DNA of 30,051 nucleotides, taken from the IMG/VR virus record IMGVR_UViG_3300049856_000226, positions 1 to 30,051 of that record, one strand, 5' to 3'. Source of the stretch: a virus. The position numbers and the translations under genes are program-made. This document shows, piece by piece, positions 3 to 27,653 of this stretch; within the stretch, counting starts at the first letter, position 1; the number at the start of each line of letters is the position of its first letter. Below the pieces are notes generated by a model. The model did no database searches. It was not told the DNA's origin and saw only the letters and a list, made by a program, of their open reading frames with translations.

Positions 3-203
3 TTTGTTGATTTATTGATTTTTGCTCATACAAAAATAGTTGAAGGAGCAACAAAAACCTGCCGCGATATTGTTCATTCGTATGGGATTGACTATAGCCT
101 GTCTACTCGTGGCCGCAAACGCTCCCATTTCTCTATTCTTCGTGATGTGTACGCCTGGCGTCTGGCCCACTCTCATGAATATAAAGAAGCCACCCATGCC
201 TAG
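3..203 (+). CDS. 3' end of a cut gene, unknown product
   Basis: This reading frame is open from the window edge and ends at a TAG that overlaps the ATG of the helicase gene (ATGCCTAG, ATG at 196). The visible 66 residues are mixed alpha-type sequence with a basic stretch (STRGRKRSH) and an aromatic, charged C-terminus (ILRDVYAWRLAHSHEY). The real start probably lies outside the window; a TTG at 15 exists but has no ribosome binding site. The stop/start overlap with the helicase suggests translational coupling in one early operon. I do not recognise the family. Basis: seen in sequence; function unknown. Confidence 0.5.
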   Translation, partial: FVDLLIFAHTKIVEGATKTCRDIVHSYGIDYSLSTRGRKRSHFSILRDVYAWRLAHSHEYKEATHA

Positions 204-1986
204 CGCCCTCCTCCTCGACCCCGAACTCCTGGCGGAACGTGCCGCTATCCTGGCCGTCGAGAACGACTTTCCCGACGAAGAGGCCGAAGCGCTGTCCTGG
301 TTCTGGCATAGCTGGGCACCCTCGCCACCTATGCCTTCCAGACTCACCTACACTGACTGGCCCCTGCGGCCTGCCTGGCCGCAGACGGTCTTGCAGCTCT
401 GCCCCTACGTCTCGCCTGTTGTACTCCGTCCGTACCAGAGTGACGCTGTGGATGCTGCCTATACTGCCTGGCAGGAAGGAGAGTCTGTGGTGCTGGATCT
501 GGCCACAGGCGCCGGCAAGTCCCTGGTCATTGCTGAACTGTGCAAACGTATCCCTGGCCGCATCCTCGTCATTACGCATCGGGCGGAATTGCTGGAGCAA
601 AACAGTGCAGAGCTGGCCTTGCTCATGGGCCCAAGCGTGGACTACGGGTTGTATTGTGCCGGGTTGCGCAAGAAGCAAGGGGGAAACCGCGTGGTCTTTG
701 CGTCGATTGCCTCTGCATACCGCAGTGGCGATACCCTATGGAAGGCTGGCCCCTTTACGGCCATCCTGATCGATGAGGCGCATAGAGTCCCATTACTGCA
801 CGACGCAAAAGGCGTCCCCCTCGCATCCATGTACCGGAGCTACTTTGATGCCATGCCCGAACGCCCGCCCCTGATCGGCTTGACTGCCACCCCAAGCCGC
901 ATGGGGACGCCGATCTATGGCCATCCTGATGCCTGGTTTGCGCGAGTGGCCAGCCGTGCCAGCATGCGCGACTTGACACCAGGATACCTCCTCCCACTGG
1001 TCCCGATACAGGGTATCGTGACGATTGATACCAGCAAAGTACATACCGTTGGCGGGGAATACAACACGAGGGAACTGAGCAACGCCGCGAGTGAAGAACG
1101 CATCGTCGAAGCGGCTGTCGAGGAGATATGCACCCATGCGCCACAGGTCGGCTGCAAGAGCTGGTTGGTTTTTTGTGTCGATCAGCGGCACTGTCATATC
1201 GTCGGGGCCGCGTTTGCGCGTCGCGGGGTGTCAGTCGGGGTGCTCACGGACCAAACCCCACGCAAAGAACGGGCTCAGCTCTTGGCCGCAACGAAGTCAG
1301 GCGGGCTGACGTGCTTAGTCAATTGCGAGATTGCCACGACGGGCAGTAATATCCCCCGACTTGATTGCCTAGTCATCCTCCGCCCGACAAAATCCAAGGA
1401 GCTTTTCATTCAGATGCTCGGGCGAGGGACGCGGCAGTTCGAGGGGCTTAAGCGCTGCATTGTGATGGACTATACCGACAATTCGGAGCAGCATGCGCCG
1501 TTGGAAGGCGTACCAACGCTTCGTGGGAATCCCACGTTGGAAGCAGCACGGGAAGCCGAAGAAGAGGCAGCACGGGAAGCCGTCCGCCAGAGAGAGGAGG
1601 AACGCCGGGCAAAGCACGCGGCGACCCTCGCGGGCAAACAAGACCCATCGCGCGCTCGCTATCAGGTCGAAAGCGTGCAGTATAGCGTGTCGCGGACGAA
1701 GGACGACACGCGGGATATGCTTGTGGTCGATTATCAATGTCCAGCGAGGCTTCGCGGAAAACGCCTACGTATCTGGGTGTGTCTCGAACACAAAGGCCGC
1801 GCTTTGCAGGCAGCAAAGCAGTGGGTCATGCGTCGGTGGGAGTCAGAAGAGGATGCCCAGCACGCCCTCGGCATGTCTCTTGTGGCACTTGCGCATCATT
1901 TACGCCACCGATGTCTCGCGCCGCAGACTATTGTCGTCGATGAGACTGATGCATTCCCCCGCGTATTAGAGGAAATATGGGCTTGA
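196..1986 (+). CDS. SF2 DEAH-box DNA helicase, phage replication type
   Basis: A 596-residue ATP-dependent helicase of superfamily 2 (ResIII plus Helicase_C organisation). Counting from the ATG at 196, Walker A ATGAGKS is at about 103-109, DEAH at 193-196, motif III LTATPS near 229-234 and motif VI QMLGRGTRQ at 406-414. A charged Glu/Arg coiled linker (about 440-500) leads to a C-terminal domain with VSRTKDD, LVVDYQCP and WVCLEHKGRALQAAKQWVM, a tail seen on phage replicative helicases. Upstream in-frame starts (TTG at 40, ATG at 175) are possible. I prefer 196 because it has AAAGAAG upstream and overlaps the previous stop codon. Likely role: unwinding at the phage origin or during recombination. 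Its stop codon lies inside the -35 box of the next promoter. Confidence 0.88.
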   Translation: MPSALLLDPELLAERAAILAVENDFPDEEAEALSWFWHSWAPSPPMPSRLTYTDWPLRPAWPQTVLQLCPYVSPVVLRPYQSDAVDAAYTAWQEGESVVLDLATGAGKSLVIAELCKRIPGRILVITHRAELLEQNSAELALLMGPSVDYGLYCAGLRKKQGGNRVVFASIASAYRSGDTLWKAGPFTAILIDEAHRVPLLHDAKGVPLASMYRSYFDAMPERPPLIGLTATPSRMGTPIYGHPDAWFARVASRASMRDLTPGYLLPLVPIQGIVTIDTSKVHTVGGEYNTRELSNAASEERIVEAAVEEICTHAPQVGCKSWLVFCVDQRHCHIVGAAFARRGVSVGVLTDQTPRKERAQLLAATKSGGLTCLVNCEIATTGSNIPRLDCLVILRPTKSKELFIQMLGRGTRQFEGLKRCIVMDYTDNSEQHAPLEGVPTLRGNPTLEAAREAEEEAAREAVRQREEERRAKHAATLAGKQDPSRARYQVESVQYSVSRTKDDTRDMLVVDYQCPARLRGKRLRIWVCLEHKGRALQAAKQWVMRRWESEEDAQHALGMSLVALAHHLRHRCLAPQTIVVDETDAFPRVLEEIWA

Positions 1987-2230: not shown

Positions 2231-3238
2231 ATGGCCCGTACTCTTCCTCTGCGTCAGTCGTTTGCCCTCCTCGGGCGTATTCGTATCGGCGCGTCCGACA
2301 AACGCGAGCGCAACGGCAAGACCGTCAAAGTGCCGAGGCGCCTCGACAGCTTCCGGCTTACCTCCCAAGACAAGGCCGTGATAGATAAAGCCGCCCAGCT
2401 CTACGGTGGAGACGTCCAGGCTTGGCCCGACGCTCCGCAGGGTATTCCGCAGTGGCAGGTCATAACGACGGCCAACGCCATGCGCGTGATCGTGCAAGGG
2501 ACGGCCAGTATGCGCGCCTTCTACGAGGTCTGGGACGGGGAGACGTGTTCACAACGGTGTGACGGGTGCTACATTCTGAAGGACGTGGCCCACCCTGAAC
2601 GCGTGGGAGGGGAATGCACGTGTGAGGACGGGCAGGAGAGCGCGAGCAAATTAGTCACGCGGCTCGATTGCACGCTTCCTGACGTCGCGCCCTACGGCCT
2701 GTGGCGCTTGGCGTCGCACGGCATCAATGCCACGGCGGATATGCTCGGAACAGCGCGGCTCCTCGAAGCACAAGGGCAAGCGCCCACGCAGCCCTTTGAG
2801 GCCCTCTTGCGGCTTGACCAACGCCGCTCTGGGGGTCGCCTGATCCGCGTGCCCGTGCTGCATCCGCTCATGGGCCAGTCCGTTCCAGCTCCGCGGCTCG
2901 CCACCCCACTGCAGGCAGACGATGCGGCACGTGATCTGTTCGGGGATCATGTGCAGACTCTCGCGCCCGCGCTGCCTACCGAACCCAACGCCGAGGAGCG
3001 TGTGGACATTGATGACCTCATAGAAACCATTGAGGCGCTACTGAGAGACGGCGGGCTTGACCCGGCGCGCTACTGGTCGCGGTTGTGTGACCACTGGGCG
3101 ATTGAGCGCCCGCAGCATTTGACGAGCGGGCAGCTCCAAAATGTGCTTGGGAAGCTGCGGAGTGATCTAGCGCAACGGGCGAGCCAGGTGACCGCCGTCG
3201 AGGACGTGAGCGCTGAGGGTGATCATGTTCCATTCTGA
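2231..3238 (+). CDS. phiC31 gp3/RDF-like zinc-binding protein
   Basis: A 335-residue protein whose N-terminal half resembles the recombination directionality factor-like family typified by phiC31 gp3. It has FRLTSQDKAVIDKAAQLYGG at 41-60, then W..ITTANAMRVIV, a Cys cluster C106, C110, C113, C129, C131 suited to binding zinc, and LPDVAPYGLWRLASHGINA (about 149-167). Phage members of this family partner a large serine integrase and switch it to excision. The C-terminal third (about 230-335) is less typical, with an acidic helix and a small helical segment. AAAGGAG lies at 2216-2222, upstream of the ATG. It directly follows the ribbon-helix-helix gene. No integrase is present in the window, so the excision role is inferred; many relatives are simply uncharacterised. 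Confidence 0.6.
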   Translation: MARTLPLRQSFALLGRIRIGASDKRERNGKTVKVPRRLDSFRLTSQDKAVIDKAAQLYGGDVQAWPDAPQGIPQWQVITTANAMRVIVQGTASMRAFYEVWDGETCSQRCDGCYILKDVAHPERVGGECTCEDGQESASKLVTRLDCTLPDVAPYGLWRLASHGINATADMLGTARLLEAQGQAPTQPFEALLRLDQRRSGGRLIRVPVLHPLMGQSVPAPRLATPLQADDAARDLFGDHVQTLAPALPTEPNAEERVDIDDLIETIEALLRDGGLDPARYWSRLCDHWAIERPQHLTSGQLQNVLGKLRSDLAQRASQVTAVEDVSAEGDHVPF

Positions 3239-3255
3239 AGAGACAGGAGACGACG

Positions 3256-3486
3256 ATGTCGACACAATGTACCCATGTGTGCGTGAGGCGACACGGGGAA
3301 CTCCTGCTCTACACACGCTTTATGTCCTGGCAGGAGGCCAAAGACCACCAGGAGCAGAGAAAAGCGCATGGGGCCCATGTCTGGATTTGTCAAACGTCCC
3401 GCGCGGCGCAACAGTGGCTCGCTGAGCAGAGTGCCCGTGATGCCGCAGAAGAGATGCTGCAGAAGAACGGAGTCACTGATGGATAA
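3256..3486 (+). CDS. small Cys/His-containing protein, unknown
   Basis: A 76-residue protein with CTHVC near the N-terminus, an aromatic segment (LLYTRFMSW) and an amphipathic, Glu/Gln/Lys-rich second half ending in a helix (AAEEMLQKNG). AGGAG stands ahead of the ATG. It follows the RDF-like gene by 17 bases and overlaps the next gene by eight bases, so it is probably cotranscribed. The short CxxxC pair alone is not enough for a metal site. I do not recognise the family. Confidence 0.6.
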   Translation: MSTQCTHVCVRRHGELLLYTRFMSWQEAKDHQEQRKAHGAHVWICQTSRAAQQWLAEQSARDAAEEMLQKNGVTDG

Positions 3487-3670
3487 TCCTATGCACGCTT
3501 CGGCCTGCGCACTCTATCTCGTGCGCTTTCACCTGTCGCAGGCTATCCAAGACCTCCTGATCGATTCCCCCGCACTGACGGCGGGGGAGGTGGCAGACTA
3601 TGTGACGGAGGTGCTTGACGATGCTTACGACGACGCGGTCGAGAGCCTCAGGCTCTCCCCACGGCTCTAA
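3479..3670 (+). CDS. small acidic helical protein, unknown
   Basis: A 63-residue acidic protein with predicted helices (CALYLVRFHLSQAIQDLL and VADYVTEVLDDAYDDAVES). The frame is open further upstream, but the ATG at 3479 has GGAG at 3469-3472 and overlaps the previous gene, whereas longer versions would be embedded in that gene. An internal ATG at 3491 is a weaker alternative. The pattern is compatible with a small dimerising or protein-binding phage protein. No family recognised. Confidence 0.6.
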   Translation: MDNPMHASACALYLVRFHLSQAIQDLLIDSPALTAGEVADYVTEVLDDAYDDAVESLRLSPRL

Positions 3671-3682
3671 AGGAGTGCCCCG

Positions 3683-3850
3683 ATGGACATGAGACCCCGC
3701 GAGACGGCGCCTGGAACCCCCAAACCGACCTTTACCCTGTGCCCCACGTGCGGCAAAATGTGCTTAAAAGGCCGCACGTCTGAGGAGGGATTGCGCACAG
3801 CAGCGCTCGGGTTGCCGCATGTGTGCGTAATCGATGAGGAGCCCGTGTGA
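3683..3850 (+). CDS. 55-residue zinc-ribbon-like protein
   Basis: A short gene with a good ribosome binding site (AAAGGAG at 3669-3675) and an ATG at 3683. The 55 residues hold a Cys knuckle, CPTCGKMC, and a second His/Cys motif near the C-terminus (PHVCV), which together could bind one zinc ion. Its stop codon overlaps the GTG start of the next gene (GTGTGA). Small zinc-ribbon proteins are common in phage early regions, but this one has no assignable job. Confidence 0.6.
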   Translation: MDMRPRETAPGTPKPTFTLCPTCGKMCLKGRTSEEGLRTAALGLPHVCVIDEEPV

Positions 3851-4215
3851 CAGACAAAGAAATACTCATACAAGACCTCTCGAAAGCCTATGCTGCGCGG
3901 AAACATTTGGAGGAAAAACTTGAGACCTTGCAGGGACACACGCGTGCCTTAGAGCATGATGCCGGACTGGCGCTATCGCCGCTGCCGCTGGGGACGCGCC
4001 TTCAGTCTCATGGGCGACAGCCCAAACGGTATGAGTTGGTTGATGTGCGGTATGCATGGTCCTGCTTCACCGGCTACGAGCCTGGGACGTTCATTTTTTA
4101 TCTCATGCGCGTCAAAAAAAATGGCGCGTTGTGGAGCGGAAAGCCAACCACTTTTTGCGACATCTTCGCGGTGACGTACGATTTTGATGTTATTGCGCAG
4201 GAGGGATCACCATGA
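3847..4215 (+). CDS. protein with N-terminal coiled coil, unknown
   Basis: A 122-residue protein starting with GTG at 3847, overlapping the previous stop. Residues about 3-38 form a strongly charged heptad-like helix (LSKAYAARKHLEEKLETLQG). The rest looks like a compact beta domain with many aromatics (RYELVDVRYAWSCFTGYEPG, FIFYLMRVKKNG). The arrangement suggests an oligomer with a small globular head. No match to a family I can name. It overlaps the next small gene by four bases (ATG at 4212), again suggesting coupling. Confidence 0.65.
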   Translation: MTDKEILIQDLSKAYAARKHLEEKLETLQGHTRALEHDAGLALSPLPLGTRLQSHGRQPKRYELVDVRYAWSCFTGYEPGTFIFYLMRVKKNGALWSGKPTTFCDIFAVTYDFDVIAQEGSP

Positions 4216-4334: not shown

Positions 4335-4603
4335 GTGCTCCTACGCTTCCCGACGACGAAGCGGTGCTGACTGCGGTGCTGACTATGGATGGTCCCGAAT
4401 CTGCCGGGGCGAGAAAGTTTTGGACGGACGCACGAATATTCGCGGCCTTCCTGGCCTTTTATCGTGAGCACGCGCGCTGGCCTGTGTATGGAGACCTTGT
4501 AGCATACTGGGGTACGCTGCCCAGCCACACCACGCTTCGCCGCCGTGGTGGGCTCGTCGCCATACGGCTCGCGGCACAACACCTGATGGAGCAAGAGCCA
4601 TGA
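4331..4603 (+). CDS. homing-endonuclease-associated-repeat-like small protein
   Basis: A 90-residue protein (start at 4331, overlapping the previous stop as ATGA; ATG at 4325 is also possible). The second half, FLAFYREHARWPVYGDLVAY followed by LPSHTTLRRRGGL, has the pattern of the short helix-turn-helix repeat often attached to HNH homing endonucleases (EHGRWP...GLPSYSTLRRRFG). No HNH or other nuclease motif is present, so on its own this is probably a small DNA-binding protein. It overlaps the nuclease gene that follows (ATGA at 4600), so the two proteins may be made together. Confidence 0.6.
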   Translation: MSAPTLPDDEAVLTAVLTMDGPESAGARKFWTDARIFAAFLAFYREHARWPVYGDLVAYWGTLPSHTTLRRRGGLVAIRLAAQHLMEQEP

Positions 4604-5052
4604 GCCGCGCAGACCGCTGGAGCGAAGCTGACCTCGCTGATGTGCTGAGCCGCAGCCAGTCTCGTGTGCTGTCCGCGCATCGCGGACTTCCGCGCCTGAG
4701 CGCCGCGCCTCTCGTCACCGCACCGATAGTTCCAGATCGGTACAAAAGCGACACCGAGCGTCGTTTTGCTACGGAGAATCTTGAGTCGTGGAAGCGCCAG
4801 GGGCAAATTGAGGAGTGGTGGTACGAGCCCATGAAGGGACTCTACCTCGCACCAGAGGCCACGTATACGCCGGACTTCATGACCTATCGTGTTGGGGAGG
4901 GCTGCGTGGTCTACGAGGTGAAGGGCGCGTTTATCCGGGAGAAAGATCGGCAAAAGTTGAAGCTCGCCGCTGCGGTCTATTGGTGCTTCCCCTTTCTATT
5001 GGCACAATGGAAAGAAGCGCAGTGGCACTATACCAGGATGCCAAGCGCATGA
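4600..5052 (+). CDS. PD-(D/E)XK nuclease, DUF1064-like
   Basis: A 150-residue protein with the core of a small PD-(D/E)XK nuclease: an early Glu in KSDTERRF (E53), then YTPDF (P91-D92) and YEVKGAF (E106, K108), followed by a basic helix (REKDRQKLKLAAAVY) and a hydrophobic strand. Phage proteins of this build (DUF1064, related to VRR-type and Holliday-junction-resolving nucleases) are found next to replication genes and are thought to process branched DNA. Its length is normal for the family. Start and stop both overlap neighbouring genes. The endonuclease call is firm at fold level; the substrate is inferred. Confidence 0.75.
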   Translation: MSRADRWSEADLADVLSRSQSRVLSAHRGLPRLSAAPLVTAPIVPDRYKSDTERRFATENLESWKRQGQIEEWWYEPMKGLYLAPEATYTPDFMTYRVGEGCVVYEVKGAFIREKDRQKLKLAAAVYWCFPFLLAQWKEAQWHYTRMPSA

Positions 5053-7514: not shown

Positions 7515-8402
7515 TTAGCTCCAACTAATCCCAAAGGGCGAGGCGCATGCCCCGCCCACACTGTTGAGGTCGGTACCGCTCAGGGCCGTGGTGTAGCAAA
7601 TGATTTCCGTGAGCCTGCCATCATGGCCTGGCCCGCCTGAACTATTCCCCATGCGCAGCGCTGCTGCCAGGGACGCGCTTGTCCCCGCAGTAATCGAATT
7701 GCCCGCCGTCTGCGAATTGGCGTACACTTTCAGTGTCGTATCGCTCGAATCATGTCGCCACACGCCCACATAGGGCGTACTGAGACTGATCCCCACTGCG
7801 GCAATGAGATACGAGGAGGTAAATACAGAACTTTGTAAGTTAGGGGTCGTATCAACAGCAAATGAGGCATTCTCTCCCACTTGCGCCCAGACCTTGCGCC
7901 CGACCCCGCCAGAGCCGGTGCCCCCGCTATCGGCCAAAAACACCGAGAAGACCGTGCCGTTCGTCGTGGTGATAAACGTACTCATATTGACGGCAGAGTT
8001 GAGAAGGAACGAGCCGGTAAACTCCAGCGCCGGATAATTCCCCAAGTCCACGAAGTAGGCCCCGCTACTCAGAAGCTGTGGCTGTGTGCCCGCCGTCGCA
8101 TTGCTGACATTCCGACTGTTGCCCGACTGATCGTACCAGGTATCGATAAAGCCGCTATTGGCGCCCACAAACGCACTGAGCGCGGGAAAGTCCAGCACGT
8201 AGCCACTGAAACCAATGTCGAGTGTCGTGTTGTCGCTTGAGCGTCGCACCTTGAGGCATGGACCAGCATACGCGGCTGCCAGCTTGCGCAGAGACCAGGC
8301 ACCCGTCGCACCCGTCACCAGATCGAGCGGGTACGTCTCCGCTCTGAGGCTGTACAATTGCCCAGAGGGGAGCAGCATGGGGAACGAATAGATGTAGGAC
8401 AT
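7515..8402 (-). CDS. LamG/arabinofuranosidase-like tail protein, receptor-binding candidate
   Basis: A 295-residue protein. Its start (SLRKLAAAYAGPCLKVRRSS at about 37-56, then LDIGFSG and FIDTWYDQSGNSRN) matches the opening of the fungal-type alpha-L-arabinofuranosidase B/LamG-like jelly-roll domain that phages use in tail fibres and spikes. The C-terminal half is all beta, with Ser/Thr/Gly-rich strands and ends LTEIICYTTALSGTDLN, typical of concanavalin-like folds. It is the last structural gene, directly behind the fibre gene, where receptor-binding proteins usually lie. Whether it binds or cuts a glycan cannot be read from the sequence. GAGGGG precedes the ATG. Confidence 0.72.
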   Translation of the reverse strand: MSYIYSFPMLLPSGQLYSLRAETYPLDLVTGATGAWSLRKLAAAYAGPCLKVRRSSDNTTLDIGFSGYVLDFPALSAFVGANSGFIDTWYDQSGNSRNVSNATAGTQPQLLSSGAYFVDLGNYPALEFTGSFLLNSAVNMSTFITTTNGTVFSVFLADSGGTGSGGVGRKVWAQVGENASFAVDTTPNLQSSVFTSSYLIAAVGISLSTPYVGVWRHDSSDTTLKVYANSQTAGNSITAGTSASLAAALRMGNSSGGPGHDGRLTEIICYTTALSGTDLNSVGGACASPFGISWS

Positions 8403-8410
8403 CGCCCCTC

Positions 8411-9655
8411 TTACGCGTCGGTGTCGGCATTCGTTGTATAGTATATTTCGATACCGATCATTTCAGCCGTAGCCGCGAGTGTGTCGCTCCCATTGGTGGG
8501 GTCACGGTAGACGCGCCAGTCGATCATGTCGCCTGCTGCCGGGGTCCCTGCAATCGTCAGCGCACTACTGGTGGCGCTGGTGTGCTGTTTGTAGGCTGTC
8601 GTTCCGAGGCCAGCGTCCGTAATGGTGATGGCAGTGCCGTAGGCCACGTCCATCACGTCACCGTCAGAGGTCGCCACGGCCTGCAAGCCAAAGACCACGC
8701 TATTGGTGCTGGTACTATTGAGTGTCCAGCGGACACGATAGGTGACGGTCCCAAGATTCCACGCTTTGGGGAACGCAAATTGAAAGCAGGCATATTTGAG
8801 CGCGGCACCATCGACAAACGACAACGCCTTCACGTTGTTTTTGTTCGTGGCCATTTCGACTTGACTACCCCCGGCGCCGTTGGTGACGGATGGAGTCATA
8901 GCCGAGGCCGGGACATAAATCGTATGCAGCCCTTGCGTTGAACCGCCCGGTGTCGCCCAGGTGGCATCGCCCCGTAAAAACTTGGTCGTATCGTTGGGGG
9001 CTTTGGGCACCAGGCCGTGCCAGACCGTCGTCACATCCGTGGTCAGTGCTTCAAGCGTCCATGTCGTATTGGCCGTGGTGCAGCGCAGGACGACGCTGTT
9101 GTAGCGCAACACCCCCGCGTAACTGCCGCCTGTGCCCACCGTGGTACTCACGTCACCGCTGACGATACTCTGACTGGCATTTTGCGCAATCGTCCAGCCG
9201 CCTGCCCCCTTGCCGATCACGATAATCACATCACCGAGAAGCGCTGTGGTAGGGAGTGTGAGCGTCACCAGACTGGCGTTATTGGCGATATAGCCGTTCT
9301 GGCTCACCATCGTTTGCGATGTGCCAGTCACTTCGGTCCAGGTAAGCTTGATATCGGCTGTCGGGAGATTGATGGCCGTGCCCTGCCAGCCGCTGGTAGC
9401 GCCGCTGGGCTCATAGCTCCCGAGCGTGCCATCAAAATCCCGTGGGCGGCGCCAGTAGTAGCGGATATCCCCAGGGGTCAAACCCGTGTGCGTATACGAT
9501 TGCTCAAGGGCTTGCTGTCCCACGGGGGCAGCCAGGAGCGCCGCCGTCGAACGATCGTTGACGCTGGCGACCCACACCTCGGTATTGCAAAACGTATCCG
9601 TGTTGGGATTCGTCCAGTCAATCCGTATGGCGCGATAGATCCCCGTGGCACTCAT
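8411..9655 (-). CDS. tail fibre/appendage protein
   Basis: A 414-residue beta-rich, Thr/Ala/Gly-rich protein. The first about 85 residues resemble a fibronectin-III-like module (EQSYTHTGLTPGDIRYYWRR). A middle domain has LPTTALLGDVIIVIGKGAGG and WTIAQNASQSIV, seen in fibre shafts, followed by KFLRGDATWATPGG, a motif typical of phage fibre and collar proteins. The last about 170 residues form a separate beta domain (YKQHTSATSSALTIAG, YRDPTNGSDTLAATAEMIGI). It starts by ATGA overlap with the tail-tip gene, as expected for an appendage attached to the tip. Probably trimeric; inferred. Confidence 0.75.
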   Translation of the reverse strand: MSATGIYRAIRIDWTNPNTDTFCNTEVWVASVNDRSTAALLAAPVGQQALEQSYTHTGLTPGDIRYYWRRPRDFDGTLGSYEPSGATSGWQGTAINLPTADIKLTWTEVTGTSQTMVSQNGYIANNASLVTLTLPTTALLGDVIIVIGKGAGGWTIAQNASQSIVSGDVSTTVGTGGSYAGVLRYNSVVLRCTTANTTWTLEALTTDVTTVWHGLVPKAPNDTTKFLRGDATWATPGGSTQGLHTIYVPASAMTPSVTNGAGGSQVEMATNKNNVKALSFVDGAALKYACFQFAFPKAWNLGTVTYRVRWTLNSTSTNSVVFGLQAVATSDGDVMDVAYGTAITITDAGLGTTAYKQHTSATSSALTIAGTPAAGDMIDWRVYRDPTNGSDTLAATAEMIGIEIYYTTNADTDA

Positions 9656-13932: not shown

Positions 13933-14570
13933 TACGGCCCTTCCATTCTGAGCGAATCGAAGAGGACGCCAAAATCACTCCCGGCGCCAAAATCGCCCGC
14001 AAAGCCGCCCTCATTATTCGAGGTGGTGAGCGGGGAAGACAAATCGAGATATTCCGCCACTTGTACGAGCGCGGTAAAATCTGTACTGACGGCATGATAC
14101 GCCGCCAGGTACGTCCCACCAAGCACACTCTGTTGATCAGCCACCCACAGGAGCTGAATAACAGACGGATTGCCCCACGGAGAGGCCATCCCGGTATTGT
14201 AGGTAATGAGCAGCGTGGGTGAGGCCGTGAGCCCGGAACTAAATTTCACGATGTCGATTTGTGCACCCCGCATACGCAGCCCATACGCAGCGCCCGCCCC
14301 GCCGCTCATGTCGTCCTGGCTCATCATGCAGAGCAGCCCAAACTGATGCGAGTTACTGTCAAAGCCCAGCGCTTGCGTTTTACAGCGGAGTCGCCCGCGC
14401 GCCACACCATTCGTGAGCCCAGCACCGGCAGCCCAGTTGAGGTACGTCACACTAGCGCCACTCACACGACGAATGTTAAGCGACGAGACCCCGACCAGCA
14501 CGTTAATGGGATCAAGGAATGCGGCAATCTGGGCACTGCTAGCATGATAATCAAAGTCTGTCCAGGCCAT
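13932..14570 (-). CDS. probable lectin-like (jelly-roll) tail protein
   Basis: A 212-residue protein with no clear family. The alternating hydrophobic and polar pattern (NSHQFGLLCMMSQD, YGLRMRGAQIDIVKFSSGL, SVIQLLWVADQ, TYLAAYHAVSTDFTALVQVA) and the C-terminal GGFAGDFGAGSDFGVLFDSL resemble a concanavalin/LamG beta sandwich. Similar folds in tails bind glycans. It lies between the second tail-protein copy and DUF2460, a place where gene transfer agents carry nothing, so it is an insertion relative to that plan. The fold call is pattern-based only. TAATG overlaps at both ends suggest it belongs to the operon. Confidence 0.6.
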   Translation of the reverse strand: MAWTDFDYHASSAQIAAFLDPINVLVGVSSLNIRRVSGASVTYLNWAAGAGLTNGVARGRLRCKTQALGFDSNSHQFGLLCMMSQDDMSGGAGAAYGLRMRGAQIDIVKFSSGLTASPTLLITYNTGMASPWGNPSVIQLLWVADQQSVLGGTYLAAYHAVSTDFTALVQVAEYLDLSSPLTTSNNEGGFAGDFGAGSDFGVLFDSLRMEGP

Positions 14571-15127
14571 TAGCTTTCAAACTCTTCCGTGTAGTACGTT
14601 GTGACGTTTTCTAATCCGCCCCACTCGAATTCTTCGGTATAGTAGGGAGTCACGTTTTCCAAGCCATCCCACTCGAATTCTTCCGTATAGTACGAGACTG
14701 CATCGGTATTGGTGACGGCCATCGTCCCCGTGAGACGGGTTGTCAACTCTGCCATCACAAGCACGTCCAGTGGCTTCGTGACTAACAGCCGTTGGGCAAA
14801 CCCGTCTGACTGCCAGCGCACCGAGAACGGCTCCGTTGGTGGGCGCGGGAACGTGATGCGTATCGGCTCTATCGGCCCTTTGATCGGCGGGATCTCGTTC
14901 GGATCAAACTGAACGACAAGGATCAGGTCCGTGCCGCCGATGAGTTTCCCTGGTCTGAACGTCGCATTGGCAATCTGGCTTATGCCCGGCTGTGCTGTTT
15001 GCTGATGCGCCGTTGCCAGCGCGCGCCGGGCAAATGGCCCGAGGCGCCAGTGCACAATATGCGCCGTAAATCCTGACGTAAGGAATTCGACGTTCCCGCC
15101 GATGGACGACAGAGGGATCGTCATCAC
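14570..15127 (-). CDS. second major-tail-protein-like protein with C-terminal repeats
   Basis: A 185-residue protein. Its first about 145 residues align with the major tail protein encoded at 18959-19384: both have LATxHxQTAQPGxxQxxNATF, then PGK(L/I)I, FDPN-x2-PPI, ITxP, and a final LDxx strand. It is thus a paralogue of the tube protein, placed after the tape measure rather than before it. The C-terminus adds a tandem repeat (YYTEEFEWDGLENVT, twice, then YYTEEFES; about 145-185) missing from the other copy. A distal-tail adaptor role is the simplest reading, because tube and distal ring proteins share a fold. ATG at 15127 and ATG at 15124 are both possible; ATGA overlaps the tape measure stop. 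Confidence 0.7.
   Translation of the reverse strand: MMTIPLSSIGGNVEFLTSGFTAHIVHWRLGPFARRALATAHQQTAQPGISQIANATFRPGKLIGGTDLILVVQFDPNEIPPIKGPIEPIRITFPRPPTEPFSVRWQSDGFAQRLLVTKPLDVLVMAELTTRLTGTMAVTNTDAVSYYTEEFEWDGLENVTPYYTEEFEWGGLENVTTYYTEEFES
14573..14692 (-). repeat. 48-bp tandem repeat, 2.5 copies, coding
   Basis: Two complete 48-bp units (14645-14692 and 14597-14644) and a half unit (14573-14596) encode YYTEEFEWDGLENVTP, YYTEEFEWGGLENVTT and YYTEEFES. The copies differ at synonymous and a few amino-acid positions, for example D/G and P/T, so they are not brand-new. The repeat is acidic and aromatic, at the very C-terminus of the tail-protein paralogue. Confidence 0.85.
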
Positions 15128-19817: not shown

Positions 19818-20387
19818 TTACCCCTGTCGCAGGTTCTCACGGGCAATGCCTGCCCGGATAGATGCCTGTAATTGATTGAGCACTTCCAGCTCTCGACTCT
19901 TGAGGGCAGGGCGTAAAAACGGGTGTGGTGGCGTACGTCTCGATCCAAGCTCTCGCTGGGTCAGTGCCCGTGCATTGGCCCGTGCCCGTCCGTGGCCTGG
20001 GGCGGCATGGCCTTTTTCCACATGCGCCGGGTAGTAATAGCGGTCTGCTGCGTCAATGCCCAGTTCCGCCCGTGTGCCGGTGATGACACGGTAGCCCACC
20101 CGGCCTGTTTTGCGCTTCAGGGCCACCACGTGCAGATGATTACGCAGTCTGGCAATATGTTTCAAGGTAAACCGTCTCGCCTCCCGTTCTCGCCGTTTAT
20201 TCCCACGCTGCCCAGGAAAGAGCTTTGTGCGTGGGGCACTGATGTTCTGCTGCGCGGCTCGTAGCACGCCCGTCGCAGCCTGGCGGAACGCGCTAGCAAG
20301 CACTTTACGTTCAAGACGGTCAGTAAGCCCTGCCAACGTTTTCTCTAGCTCTGTATCACCCAAAAGCTTTATATCAAATCGTCCCAT
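19818..20387 (-). CDS. HK97 gp10-like head-tail/tail completion protein
   Basis: A 189-residue protein of the HK97 gp10 family: DTELEKTLAGLTDRLERKVL at the N-terminus, a very basic middle (PGQRGNKRREREARRFTLK), YYPAHVEKGHAAPGHG, and RTPPHPFLRPALKSRELE near the end. The VEKGH and PHPFLRPA elements are typical. It is slightly long because of the basic insert. Its start overlaps the end of the gene before it by 14 bases. It helps join tail to head. Confidence 0.85.
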   Translation of the reverse strand: MGRFDIKLLGDTELEKTLAGLTDRLERKVLASAFRQAATGVLRAAQQNISAPRTKLFPGQRGNKRREREARRFTLKHIARLRNHLHVVALKRKTGRVGYRVITGTRAELGIDAADRYYYPAHVEKGHAAPGHGRARANARALTQRELGSRRTPPHPFLRPALKSRELEVLNQLQASIRAGIARENLRQG

Positions 20388-20715
20388 GATGCCATCGCTC
20401 CCTCGTCATCACCCCTTCTACACGATAGGAGCACGCATTTTGCTCACATGCACACACATGGAGAGGGTCACACAAAATAATGGCATATCTCTTTAAGATA
20501 TGCATTTCTCTCACATAGCGAAGGGGTATCCCATCCACGGCAAACCGCCACTCTGGCCCTGTTTCAGACCACAAATAACTGGTATGCCCTTCACCATCAG
20601 GGGATGAAGCCAGGTCCAGGGACGGATCACATGATGCACAACGACAACGATGTTGCAGGGAGTGTTCCATCCATGGCAATGTACTAGACTCGTATTCCGT
20701 GACTGGGGCTTCCAT
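20374..20715 (-). CDS. small Cys-rich protein, unknown
   Basis: A 113-residue protein with a Cys pair CRCASC (about 24-29) and a second Cys group DPLHVCACEQNAC (about 83-95), which may bind one zinc ion, flanking a beta segment (EWRFAVDGIPLRYVREMHI). GAGGGAGA is upstream of the ATG. It is more AT-rich than its neighbours and contains a perfect 8-bp hairpin (20483-20490/20496-20503). Together with the + strand ORF next to it, it breaks the usual order of head completion genes and could be a moron. No family named. Confidence 0.6.
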   Translation of the reverse strand: MEAPVTEYESSTLPWMEHSLQHRCRCASCDPSLDLASSPDGEGHTSYLWSETGPEWRFAVDGIPLRYVREMHILKRYAIILCDPLHVCACEQNACSYRVEGVMTRERWHHGTI

Positions 20716-20753
20716 GTCGCCGTCTCCCTCTCTCGTGTTGAAAGGGTCTCTCT

Positions 20754-21083
20754 ATGAGTGATCGCATTGCCTGCCTCGCGTTTATTCCGGCATCACTAGA
20801 ACCGTGGGGCTGGGCTGATGGTATATTGCATCCTGGCTCGACACTGCACGAGCTGGAGGCTGTCGCTGCTACATGTGCCTGGCAATCTCCGCTCAAAATC
20901 TCGGTTGCAAACATGAACCGCCTTCCATTTGCGCTGATCGCTCTCCAAGCACTCTGGGAAAGAGAGTATTCCTATGAAGAGAGAAACTATACAATCCGCG
21001 AGGACGCGCGAGCCTCGCCCACAGATTCCAGCATTACGGGACAACCTGCCCAGACACAAACGGGCCACCAGAGGGCATCGTGA
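20754..21083 (+). CDS. oppositely oriented ORF in the late operon, moron candidate
   Basis: A 109-residue ORF on the + strand with AAAGGG seven bases before its ATG, in the only real gap (20716-21033) of the minus-strand late operon. The first about 70 residues read like a real protein (IACLAFIPASLEPWGWADG, LHELEAVAATCAW, PFALIALQALWE); the last about 30 residues are polar and overlap the 3' end of the minus-strand cement-like gene by 50 bases. The composition is more AT-rich than the surroundings. I found no clear promoter. A minus-strand alternative (20684-20914) looks less natural. It could be a moron or a false ORF. Confidence 0.4.
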   Translation: MSDRIACLAFIPASLEPWGWADGILHPGSTLHELEAVAATCAWQSPLKISVANMNRLPFALIALQALWEREYSYEERNYTIREDARASPTDSSITGQPAQTQTGHQRAS

Positions 21084-21459
21084 GCTTATTCCCCGTCGTC
21101 CCCACTCCGACAATCGTTGCATAGTAGCCTGTTGCCAAGTCTGCTGCCGGAGCAATGCCGCCTGCAGTGGCACTTTGAATATAGATCGTTCCCACCGCGG
21201 GTGCGGCACCAGCACCCAGTGTGGGCGTTCCCCGCCGTTGGACGGCTAGCGGTTGCCCCGTCAGTGCAGCATGCAAGGCAATCCCCATCGTCACCGCCGT
21301 GAGGGCACTGGCGTTGGCATCAGCCAGCTTAATCAAGTTCGTGCTGGTATCAAGGTAGACCGTCTGCCCAGCAGTCACCGTGGCTCCAGATGTCCCGCGA
21401 AAAATATCCCCAGTCGTATCGGGCAACACCTGCGAGGCAGTAATGGTAAGATCAGCCAT
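21034..21459 (-). CDS. capsid decoration/cement-like structural protein
   Basis: A 141-residue Ala/Thr/Gly-rich beta protein: MADLTITASQVLPDTTGDI, GATVTAGQTVYLDTSTNLIK, LADANAS, GIALHAALTGQPLAVQRRGT, IYIQSATAGGIAPAADLATG and YYATIVGVGTTGNKL. This order of GATVTAGQ, LAD, GIAL.A..GQPLAV and AGGI.P..DL.TG is that of small phage head proteins thought to decorate or cement the capsid. AGGAGG is well placed before the ATG. It lies in the head-completion block. Confidence 0.72.
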   Translation of the reverse strand: MADLTITASQVLPDTTGDIFRGTSGATVTAGQTVYLDTSTNLIKLADANASALTAVTMGIALHAALTGQPLAVQRRGTPTLGAGAAPAVGTIYIQSATAGGIAPAADLATGYYATIVGVGTTGNKLTMPSGGPFVSGQVVP

Positions 21460-21471
21460 AGTTGCACCCTC

Positions 21472-21795
21472 CTAGAGAGCTGGTATAGTCTCTATCGCCA
21501 AGATATTCAGTTCTATCCCGCGCTCCGCAGGATCAAGCACACTACTGGGATACAAAAGCCGCGTTCCGAAGCGGAGTCGATAGCTCGGGGGCAAGGCGCG
21601 CCCGCGCATGGTGACGCGGTGCGTCAGATTGGCATTGATCGACGCGGCTAACTCTTTTTCACGCATGTTCAGCGGCTCAATGCTGGCCCATACAGTGTCT
21701 CCCGCCACCCACGTCTCCACAGCACCTCCGTCATCAGCCATACTCTGGGCGGGTGCTTCAATAATCACGCGGTGCCGAAGTCTTCCTGCGCGCAT
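21472..21795 (-). CDS. phage head-tail adaptor (head closure)
   Basis: A 107-residue protein of the Phage_H_T_join family: MRAGRLRHRVIIEAPAQSMA, VETWVAGDTVWASIEPLNMRE, INANLTHRVTMRGR, YRLRFGTRLLYPSSVLDPAE, and GIELNILAIE at the end. It is a typical length and follows the connector gene by two bases. It forms the ring closing the head below the connector. Confidence 0.9.
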   Translation of the reverse strand: MRAGRLRHRVIIEAPAQSMADDGGAVETWVAGDTVWASIEPLNMREKELAASINANLTHRVTMRGRALPPSYRLRFGTRLLYPSSVLDPAERGIELNILAIETIPAL

Positions 21796-27239: not shown

Positions 27240-27268
27240 AGCATACCAGGACTATAACACTAATTCAA
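27240..27268 (-). promoter_or_regulatory. promoter candidate with extended -10 before the portal gene
   Basis: On the minus strand TTGAAT (27268-27263) is separated by exactly 17 bases from TATGCT (27245-27240), with TGG directly before the -10 (extended -10). Start of transcription would be near 27233, before the terminator-like hairpin at 27206-27163. The -35 overlaps the end of the 75-residue gene. Match to consensus is moderate (four of six in each box). Confidence 0.5.
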
Positions 27269-27479
27269 GGCTCACCTTAACGACATTGCGATGGTAGCGC
27301 AGATGCACCGCGCCTGCCCGGTGCCGCGCCAGAGTTGTCTCATGGGCCAGCAGCGCTTCAACCAGCACACGCACCTGTGGATGCAGCGCGTCGAGACACA
27401 GCAGGCCGGGAGAGGGCTCGGGATACTCAAGCACGTCTGCGACAGGCTCTATTTCCCCATTGCTCCAGCGCTTCGCCAT
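27252..27479 (-). CDS. 75-residue protein, unknown
   Basis: ATG at 27479 with TAGGAG eight bases upstream. The protein has an acidic N-terminus (NGEIEPVADVLEYPEPSPGL) and a helical, His/Arg/Ala-rich second half (VRVLVEALLAHETTLARHRA) ending in strands (VHLRYHRNVVKVSLELVL). The frame extends another 34 codons upstream, but that part lacks a ribosome binding site and resembles intergenic DNA. It lies between large terminase and portal, where some phages have small head proteins. No family recognised. Confidence 0.6.
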   Translation of the reverse strand: MAKRWSNGEIEPVADVLEYPEPSPGLLCLDALHPQVRVLVEALLAHETTLARHRAGAVHLRYHRNVVKVSLELVL

Positions 27480-27653
27480 AGTGGTACTCCTAGCCAGAGA
27501 GAGGAAATACAGCGATAGGCGGGCGATGGCCGTTAGCGCGCAAGGGAAGCCACCATCTCTATCCAGTGGGGCCACCGCCATCCCTCATGGCATCCCCATT
27601 GCGAGGGCCGCAACCCCCTCGCTCTCTCTGTATTCCCCATCAAACTTTTAGTA
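27480..27653 (-). other. gap between the 75-residue gene and terL
   Basis: About 174 bases, one of the longer gaps in the late operon. A 7-bp GC hairpin (on the minus strand GCGAGGG and CCCTCGC around an 8-base loop) lies near 27600-27625 without a T-run, so it is at best a weak terminator. An in-frame extension of the downstream ORF crosses part of the gap without a ribosome binding site. No promoter was convincing. Confidence 0.4.

Follow-up and report, generated by a model that had tools for sequence, protein, structure and literature searches.

Morons are extra genes lodged between two genes that are direct neighbors in related phages, with a deviating base composition and with their own promoter and terminator. 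They are expressed from the prophage, are dispensable for growth, and are known from lambdoid and other temperate phages; Juhala 2000 is reportedly the reference for them.

The late operon of Pseudomonas phage JBD26 contains tab, a backward gene for an orphan of 83 aa that has its own promoter and is made by the prophage (PMC10884400). Tab acts via the tape measure protein and keeps invading phages from assembling their tails, and the product of a small late-strand gene beside it, anti-Tab, inactivates Tab and is presumably produced from the late transcript. The pair is located between the small and large terminase genes and is not present in all related phages (PMC10884400). Among the published arrangements found, Tab/anti-Tab comes closest to the locus presented here. 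A bS21 gene on the reverse strand is mentioned in a second source (PMC9723584).

The window analyzed here, meaning the whole stretch of DNA, is a linear IMG/VR record of 30,051 bases (IMGVR_UViG_3300049856_000226) from a tailed phage. Its open reading frame (ORF) listing and family profiles place the late genes on the minus strand. The head part of the late order runs TerL, portal, S49 protease, HK97-type capsid, connector, head completion protein (hcp) and cement-like protein, as far as the segment 20388-21033. This is followed by a gp10-like neck protein, tail terminator, major tail protein, tape measure and a tail tip with DUF2460, Gp84/BR0599 and Rcc01698 domains. Early-type genes lie on the plus strand within ~1-5.5 kb. 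The relevant features are as follows.

40-1986, plus strand: helicase gene, early-type
2231-3238, plus strand: Gp3-like gene, early-type
4600-5052, plus strand: resolvase-like gene, early-type
19818-20387, minus strand: gp10, an HK97-gp10-like tail completion or neck gene, after the insert in the late order (phrog_5, E 1.7e-9)
20374-20715, minus strand: cys, a Cys-rich orphan of 113 aa on the late strand and candidate partner of orfP
20388-21033, no strand assigned: putative inserted unit of 646 bp, present in the window but missing at the corresponding gene junction of every relative read
20716-20753, no strand assigned: 38-bp head-to-head spacer between cys and orfP, read from the sequence
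20754-21083, plus strand: orfP, a candidate cargo (moron) gene opposite to the late genes, an orphan of 109 aa from an ATG, called from its open frame and codon use
21034-21459, minus strand: cement-like or decoration protein gene, before the insert in the late order (Phage_cement_2, E 3.6e-4)
21472-21795, minus strand: hcp, head completion protein (Phage_HCP) gene, preceding the cement-like gene (PF05521, E 1.8e-18)

The explanation that we favor as a whole, with a probability of roughly 0.5, is that the segment is a cargo unit holding the backward orfP and the late-strand cys, a candidate blocker and its antidote. Taken separately, the proposal that a small cargo unit, 20388-21033, has entered the late operon at the border of the cement-like gene and gp10 has a slightly better than even chance of being correct.

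The Phage_cement_2 match of the cement-like gene falls below Pfam's cut-off, and the protein reaches 41% to p009 of Rhizobium phage 16-3 and up to 57% to viral contigs. Elsewhere on the minus strand, a 109-aa ORF at 27252-27581 has TerL on one side and portal on the other, separated from them by gaps of 72 and 102 bp; it is without a family match, and its codon score clearly exceeds that of shuffles (z 3.0). Close to where the operon ends in its tail genes, 7515-8402 on the same strand matches an alpha-L-arabinofuranosidase catalytic domain (PF09206, E 2.9e-7), and its product is possibly a sugar-binding or sugar-degrading tail protein. A 185-aa gene at 14570-15127, also on the minus strand, lies 3' of the tape measure gene. 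Its product matches a stretch of the closest relative (37.9% identity, E 8e-22) that is also matched by the major tail protein of the window, which suggests that this phage has two major tail protein-like genes, the second of them among the tail tip genes.

Gaps of more than 20 bp among the listed late genes measure 85, 318, 21, 102 and 72 bp. The 318-bp gap, 20716-21033, had been described by the first-pass annotation as the only real gap of the late operon and one without a good minus-strand gene, which agrees with the largest other gap being 102 bp and with the low scores of the minus frames. It was also correct that a plus-strand ORF fills this gap and overlaps the cement-like gene tail-to-tail, the overlap being 50 bp. 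The start assigned to that ORF, 20716, is the edge of the gap; orfP itself begins at 20754.

Several lines of evidence suggest that orfP probably encodes a protein. A codon model trained on 25 late genes gave its frame a score of -0.09, while the remaining five gap frames scored between -0.33 and -0.46, and it is the single plus-strand ORF of the gap that scores as coding. Plus-strand ORFs of at least 109 codons arose in 2.8% to 3.6% of dinucleotide shuffles (two runs), and those that also had a codon score equal to or above that of orfP were found in 3 of 10,000. Codon use alone gave z 2.1 (p 0.014). As yardsticks, tab reached 3.1 with its own phage's codon table, and two genes of the related locus L238 (IMGVR_UViG_3300031673_001225) reached 4.0 (X) and 2.1 (an Arc-like gene). 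Eight ORFs antisense to real genes ranged from -1.3 to 3.6, with three of them at 2.0-3.6. Because of the shuffle figures and codon yardsticks combined, orfP is likely, not certain, to be a coding gene.

Database searches with OrfP returned no significant match in PHROGs, Pfam, NCBIfam or PADLOC. The best values were E 0.11 against PDB sequences, E 1 and 6 against phage and plasmid records, and E 0.065, not significant, against six genomes reached through the loci. Searches of 398 and 198 sampled genomes gave no relative, an empty answer that shows little without a positive control. Pattern scans of IMG/VR matched a pattern in seven stretches, and none of these was confirmed; since such scans need exact short peptides, diverged relatives would escape them. 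Cys likewise had no convincing relative (best E 0.24 in the profile searches). Neither protein thus has a significant homologue in the collections searched. AlphaFold models made without an alignment had pLDDT values of 50.6 for OrfP and 49.0 for Cys, below useful confidence.

A different explanation, which we regard as somewhat unlikely, is that only cys is cargo and the 318 bp are an untranslated spacer or leader brought along with it, so that the plus-strand ORF is a chance open frame. The locus would then be nothing more unusual than a Cys-rich gene that was inserted together with a long leader. The frequency of equally long ORFs among shuffles is compatible with this, as are the 36 plus-strand ORFs of at least 100 codons in 6101-29900, orfP among them, the majority of which are antisense to late genes. 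Signals around the gene point the same way: its ribosome site is ordinary, and it has no promoter match, terminator or homologue. The first-pass annotation had credited orfP with its own ribosome binding site, and the site does pair with the anti-Shine-Dalgarno sequence (-4.5 kcal/mol), but 108 of the 317 plus-strand ATGs of the late region pair equally well or better. A sigma-70 scan of the 154 bp before orfP found no match of at least 8/12, whereas equally long stretches picked at random from the late region contained one in 190 of 400 cases. However, the same scan likewise finds none in the region upstream of tab in JBD26, and the missing match is therefore uninformative. A terminator search gave nothing beyond chance, with two terminator-like sites compared with a mean of 3.5 in shuffles; one of the two is a hairpin at 20483-20503, inside cys. 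Against this explanation stand the rarity of shuffles that combine the length and codon use of orfP, and the size of the gap, which no other listed late gap approaches. Furthermore, 20300-21200 has no match in Rfam up to E 5, and the predicted RNA fold of the gap is no better than shuffles on either strand (z 0.50 for both).

The cys gene overlaps gp10 by 14 bp and has a strong Shine-Dalgarno sequence (anti-Shine-Dalgarno pairing of -9.1 kcal/mol, compared with -4.5 for orfP); taken alone, its codon use does not stand out from shuffles (z 0.7-0.8). Both genes had been called visibly AT-richer, as foreign cargo would be. This stands for cys, with a GC content of 50.3% and only 4 of 780 overlapping windows equally low; for the gap with orfP the deviation is mild (54.7%, 81 of 781 windows as low; late region 58.6%). 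The 646-bp unit as a whole has a GC content of 52.6%, and 7 of 770 overlapping windows are as low. Several candidate identities for cys were rejected. A Lar restriction alleviation protein was discarded because neither Pfam nor NCBIfam gave a match of cys to the Lar profile (PF14354) at E 1. Matches to PDB entries (E 0.0022 and worse) are to designed beta-trefoils and were given no weight, and a weak match to the closest relative at contig positions 19027-19176 (E 0.010) was attributed to chance, since it falls within a tail gene of 476 aa but in another reading frame.

Comparison with relatives, which the first-pass annotation had proposed as a test, supports an inserted segment. The closest relative found is the L150 contig (also L256), with identities of 68% for TerL, 49-51% for gp10 and 54% for cement. 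There, the genes run connector, cement, cement, hcp, a 76-aa gene and gp10, and neither orfP nor cys matches its hcp-gp10 junction. The 76-aa gene is AT-rich (47.2% GC compared with 59.7%; 3 of 310 windows equally low). The L139 locus has hcp, cement and gp10 in direct succession, with an overlap of 1 bp between cement and gp10. The same two genes adjoin in L315, at a distance of 11 bp, and the cement protein there is 56% identical to that of the window. The DNA of 20388-21033 was common to no relative read.

The relatives also supplied some observations on neighboring genes. Two tandem cement-like genes occupy 3001-3859 of L150. Another stretch of the closest relative, L229 6914-9177, has a pair of DUF2460-type tail genes, and between these lies a small ORF rich in Cys (8341-8562). 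In L151, a cement-like gene (1761-2183) lies 3' of the major tail protein gene, outside the head block; the position of the cement-like gene shifts among phages.

Two broader surveys covered the junction. A scan of 80 loci with hcp found gp10 in 77, and hcp and gp10 lay within 60 bp of each other in 73 of these. The four exceptions are the L150 contig (76-aa gene), L285 and L289 (a Lar gene), and L315 (cement). Among the three loci without gp10, L262 and L311 end at most 234 bp from hcp, and in L296 no gp10 was found. A further set comprised 51 loci with gp10 and an upstream gene, which was hcp in 35, cement in 12, connector in three and the small gene of L150 in one. L001, which is the window, and L228-L230, L235 and L239, which are copies of contigs already included, were left out of this set. 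With hcp upstream, 29 of 35 lay within 60 bp. Of the other six, L238 has a backward gene pair separating hcp and gp10; L232 and L249 have the two genes adjoining if the ORF start is used instead of the match start; L217 has a 76-bp spacer; and L148 and L154 have their gp10-like match past the tail genes, with the terminator gene directly after hcp. Where cement is upstream, it adjoins gp10 in L139 and L220 (the gp10 match of L220 being weak, E 1.4e-5), and by profile an hcp gene lies between cement and gp10 in nine loci (L159, L175, L176, L178, L180, L215, L221, L222 and L223); the 12th, L224, was placed in neither group. These counts are not independent events, since the 51- and 80-locus sets can share contigs and L285 and L289 have the same sequence. 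The junction before gp10 is thus usually tight, with different small genes in a few phages, backward in one of them.

The backward pair of L238 occupies 3395-3957, between hcp and gp10. Its first product belongs to no assigned family and has 121 aa from an ATG at 3917, or 135 from an upstream TTG; the second is an Arc-like ribbon-helix-helix protein (phrog_6506, E 0.0015). The pair overlaps the preceding gene by 23 bp at its tail, has a head gap of 68 bp and is preceded by a 19-bp perfect palindrome, and it looks like autoregulated or toxin-antitoxin-like cargo. It resembles orfP in its place before gp10, its opposite strand and its tail overlap. In contrast to orfP, it has two genes, one of them Arc-like, a palindrome ahead and no late-strand partner; unlike the insert in the window, it is GC-richer than its locus (63% compared with 58%) and sits after hcp, with no cement there. 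L238 is the only backward insertion recognized at the junction, which is why we do not call it a hot spot. The Lar gene of L285 and L289, at 3318-3512 between hcp and gp10, is comparable with cys instead: it is small, Cys-rich, on the late strand and in the place of cys, and, judged by its position, this anti-restriction gene would be made late. It differs in its clear family match (PF14354, E 1.1e-12, tested on L285), where cys has none.

The segment 20388-21033 looks like an inserted cargo unit because its flanks adjoin in relatives, the closest relative is without both orfP and cys, and other small genes occur at the junction. Within such a unit, the two candidate orphan ORFs lie back to back, with cys overlapping gp10. 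We infer that orfP would be transcribed on its own, outside late expression, and that OrfP would work inside the cell to hinder competing phages. Its most likely mode of action would be to disturb virion assembly, as tab of JBD26 does. Cys would be made with the late message and could neutralize OrfP, as anti-Tab neutralizes Tab, so that the phage's own particles still assemble. This mechanism, in which OrfP blocks rival phages and Cys is a late antidote, is drawn by analogy and is, on its own, tentative and on balance unlikely.

Other roles for orfP have also been considered. It could be an early-strand gene of a non-lysogenic phage, for example for host takeover or anti-defence, with its own early promoter, cys being unrelated late cargo. 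The gene does share its strand with the helicase, Gp3-like and resolvase-like genes, and profile searches recognized no integrase or repressor among the window ORFs scanned. However, it lies ~15 kb from the early block with opposite-strand genes between, and PADLOC and PHROGs give nothing for OrfP, which makes an early gene quite unlikely. A part in an autoregulated or toxin-antitoxin-like unit, as the L238 pair seems to be, is suggested by the position and orientation of that pair at the same junction, by its Arc-like repressor and by its palindrome. We consider this very unlikely for orfP: it has no ribbon-helix-helix match among PHROGs and Pfam profiles, there is no second plus-strand gene in the gap, and 20691-20780 holds no perfect palindrome with arms of at least 5. 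Searches for a type II toxin-antitoxin system likewise gave no toxin or antitoxin family match for orfP and no adjacent same-strand partner that scores as coding. A minus-strand gene broken by a frameshift or assembly error is extremely improbable and was rejected, since the minus ORFs that overlap the gap (20684-20914 and 20796-21215) score like shuffles (z -1.2 and -0.5) and none of the six gap frames matches the relatives' loci at E 0.05.

Returning to the favored cargo unit, its likeness to morons is partial. The segment is inserted between genes that adjoin in relatives, and its base composition deviates clearly in cys but only mildly in the gap with orfP, whereas the promoter and terminator that a moron has of its own are not detected for orfP. 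The designation of orfP as a moron candidate is supported with respect to the insertion and, as likely, to coding; it finds no backing in a promoter match, in a terminator beyond chance or in an integrase or repressor recognized among the window ORFs scanned. If the unit is real, the virion operon harbors, as optional cargo, a protein for which no relative was detected, in a layout like that of a proven assembly-blocking defence. It would also suggest a search rule, in which a lone backward ORF together with an orphan late-strand ORF in a late operon points to prophage defences missed by sequence searches.

The comparison with Tab/anti-Tab is one of layout. OrfP and Cys have no sequence similarity to Tab and anti-Tab, the best pairwise blastp match being OrfP with Tab at E 2.1 over 13 residues. 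The sites differ, being between the cement-like gene and gp10 in the window and between the terminase genes in JBD26. Furthermore, in JBD26 it is the antidote gene that overlaps the tail of the blocker, whereas in the window the conserved cement gene is found there and the orphan cys lies on the start side. A reading by analogy, which we consider quite unlikely, would make orfP and cys an equivalent of Tab/anti-Tab that evolved independently, with unrelated proteins and at the neck-gene junction. If it were true, a backward blocker with a late antidote in the virion operon would be a recurrent strategy that can be found from gene layout alone. The dimensions of the two loci are close. In the JBD26 record (JN811560), tab shares 47 bp with the gene at its tail and is separated at its head by 30 bp from the next late gene, compared with 50 and 38 bp for orfP. 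The GC content of tab (54.4%) and anti-tab (57.5%) is below that of the stretch around them (64.7%), just as orfP is mildly, and cys clearly, AT-richer than its surroundings. In both phages, the late operon contains a small backward orphan that is flanked on one side by a small orphan of the late strand.
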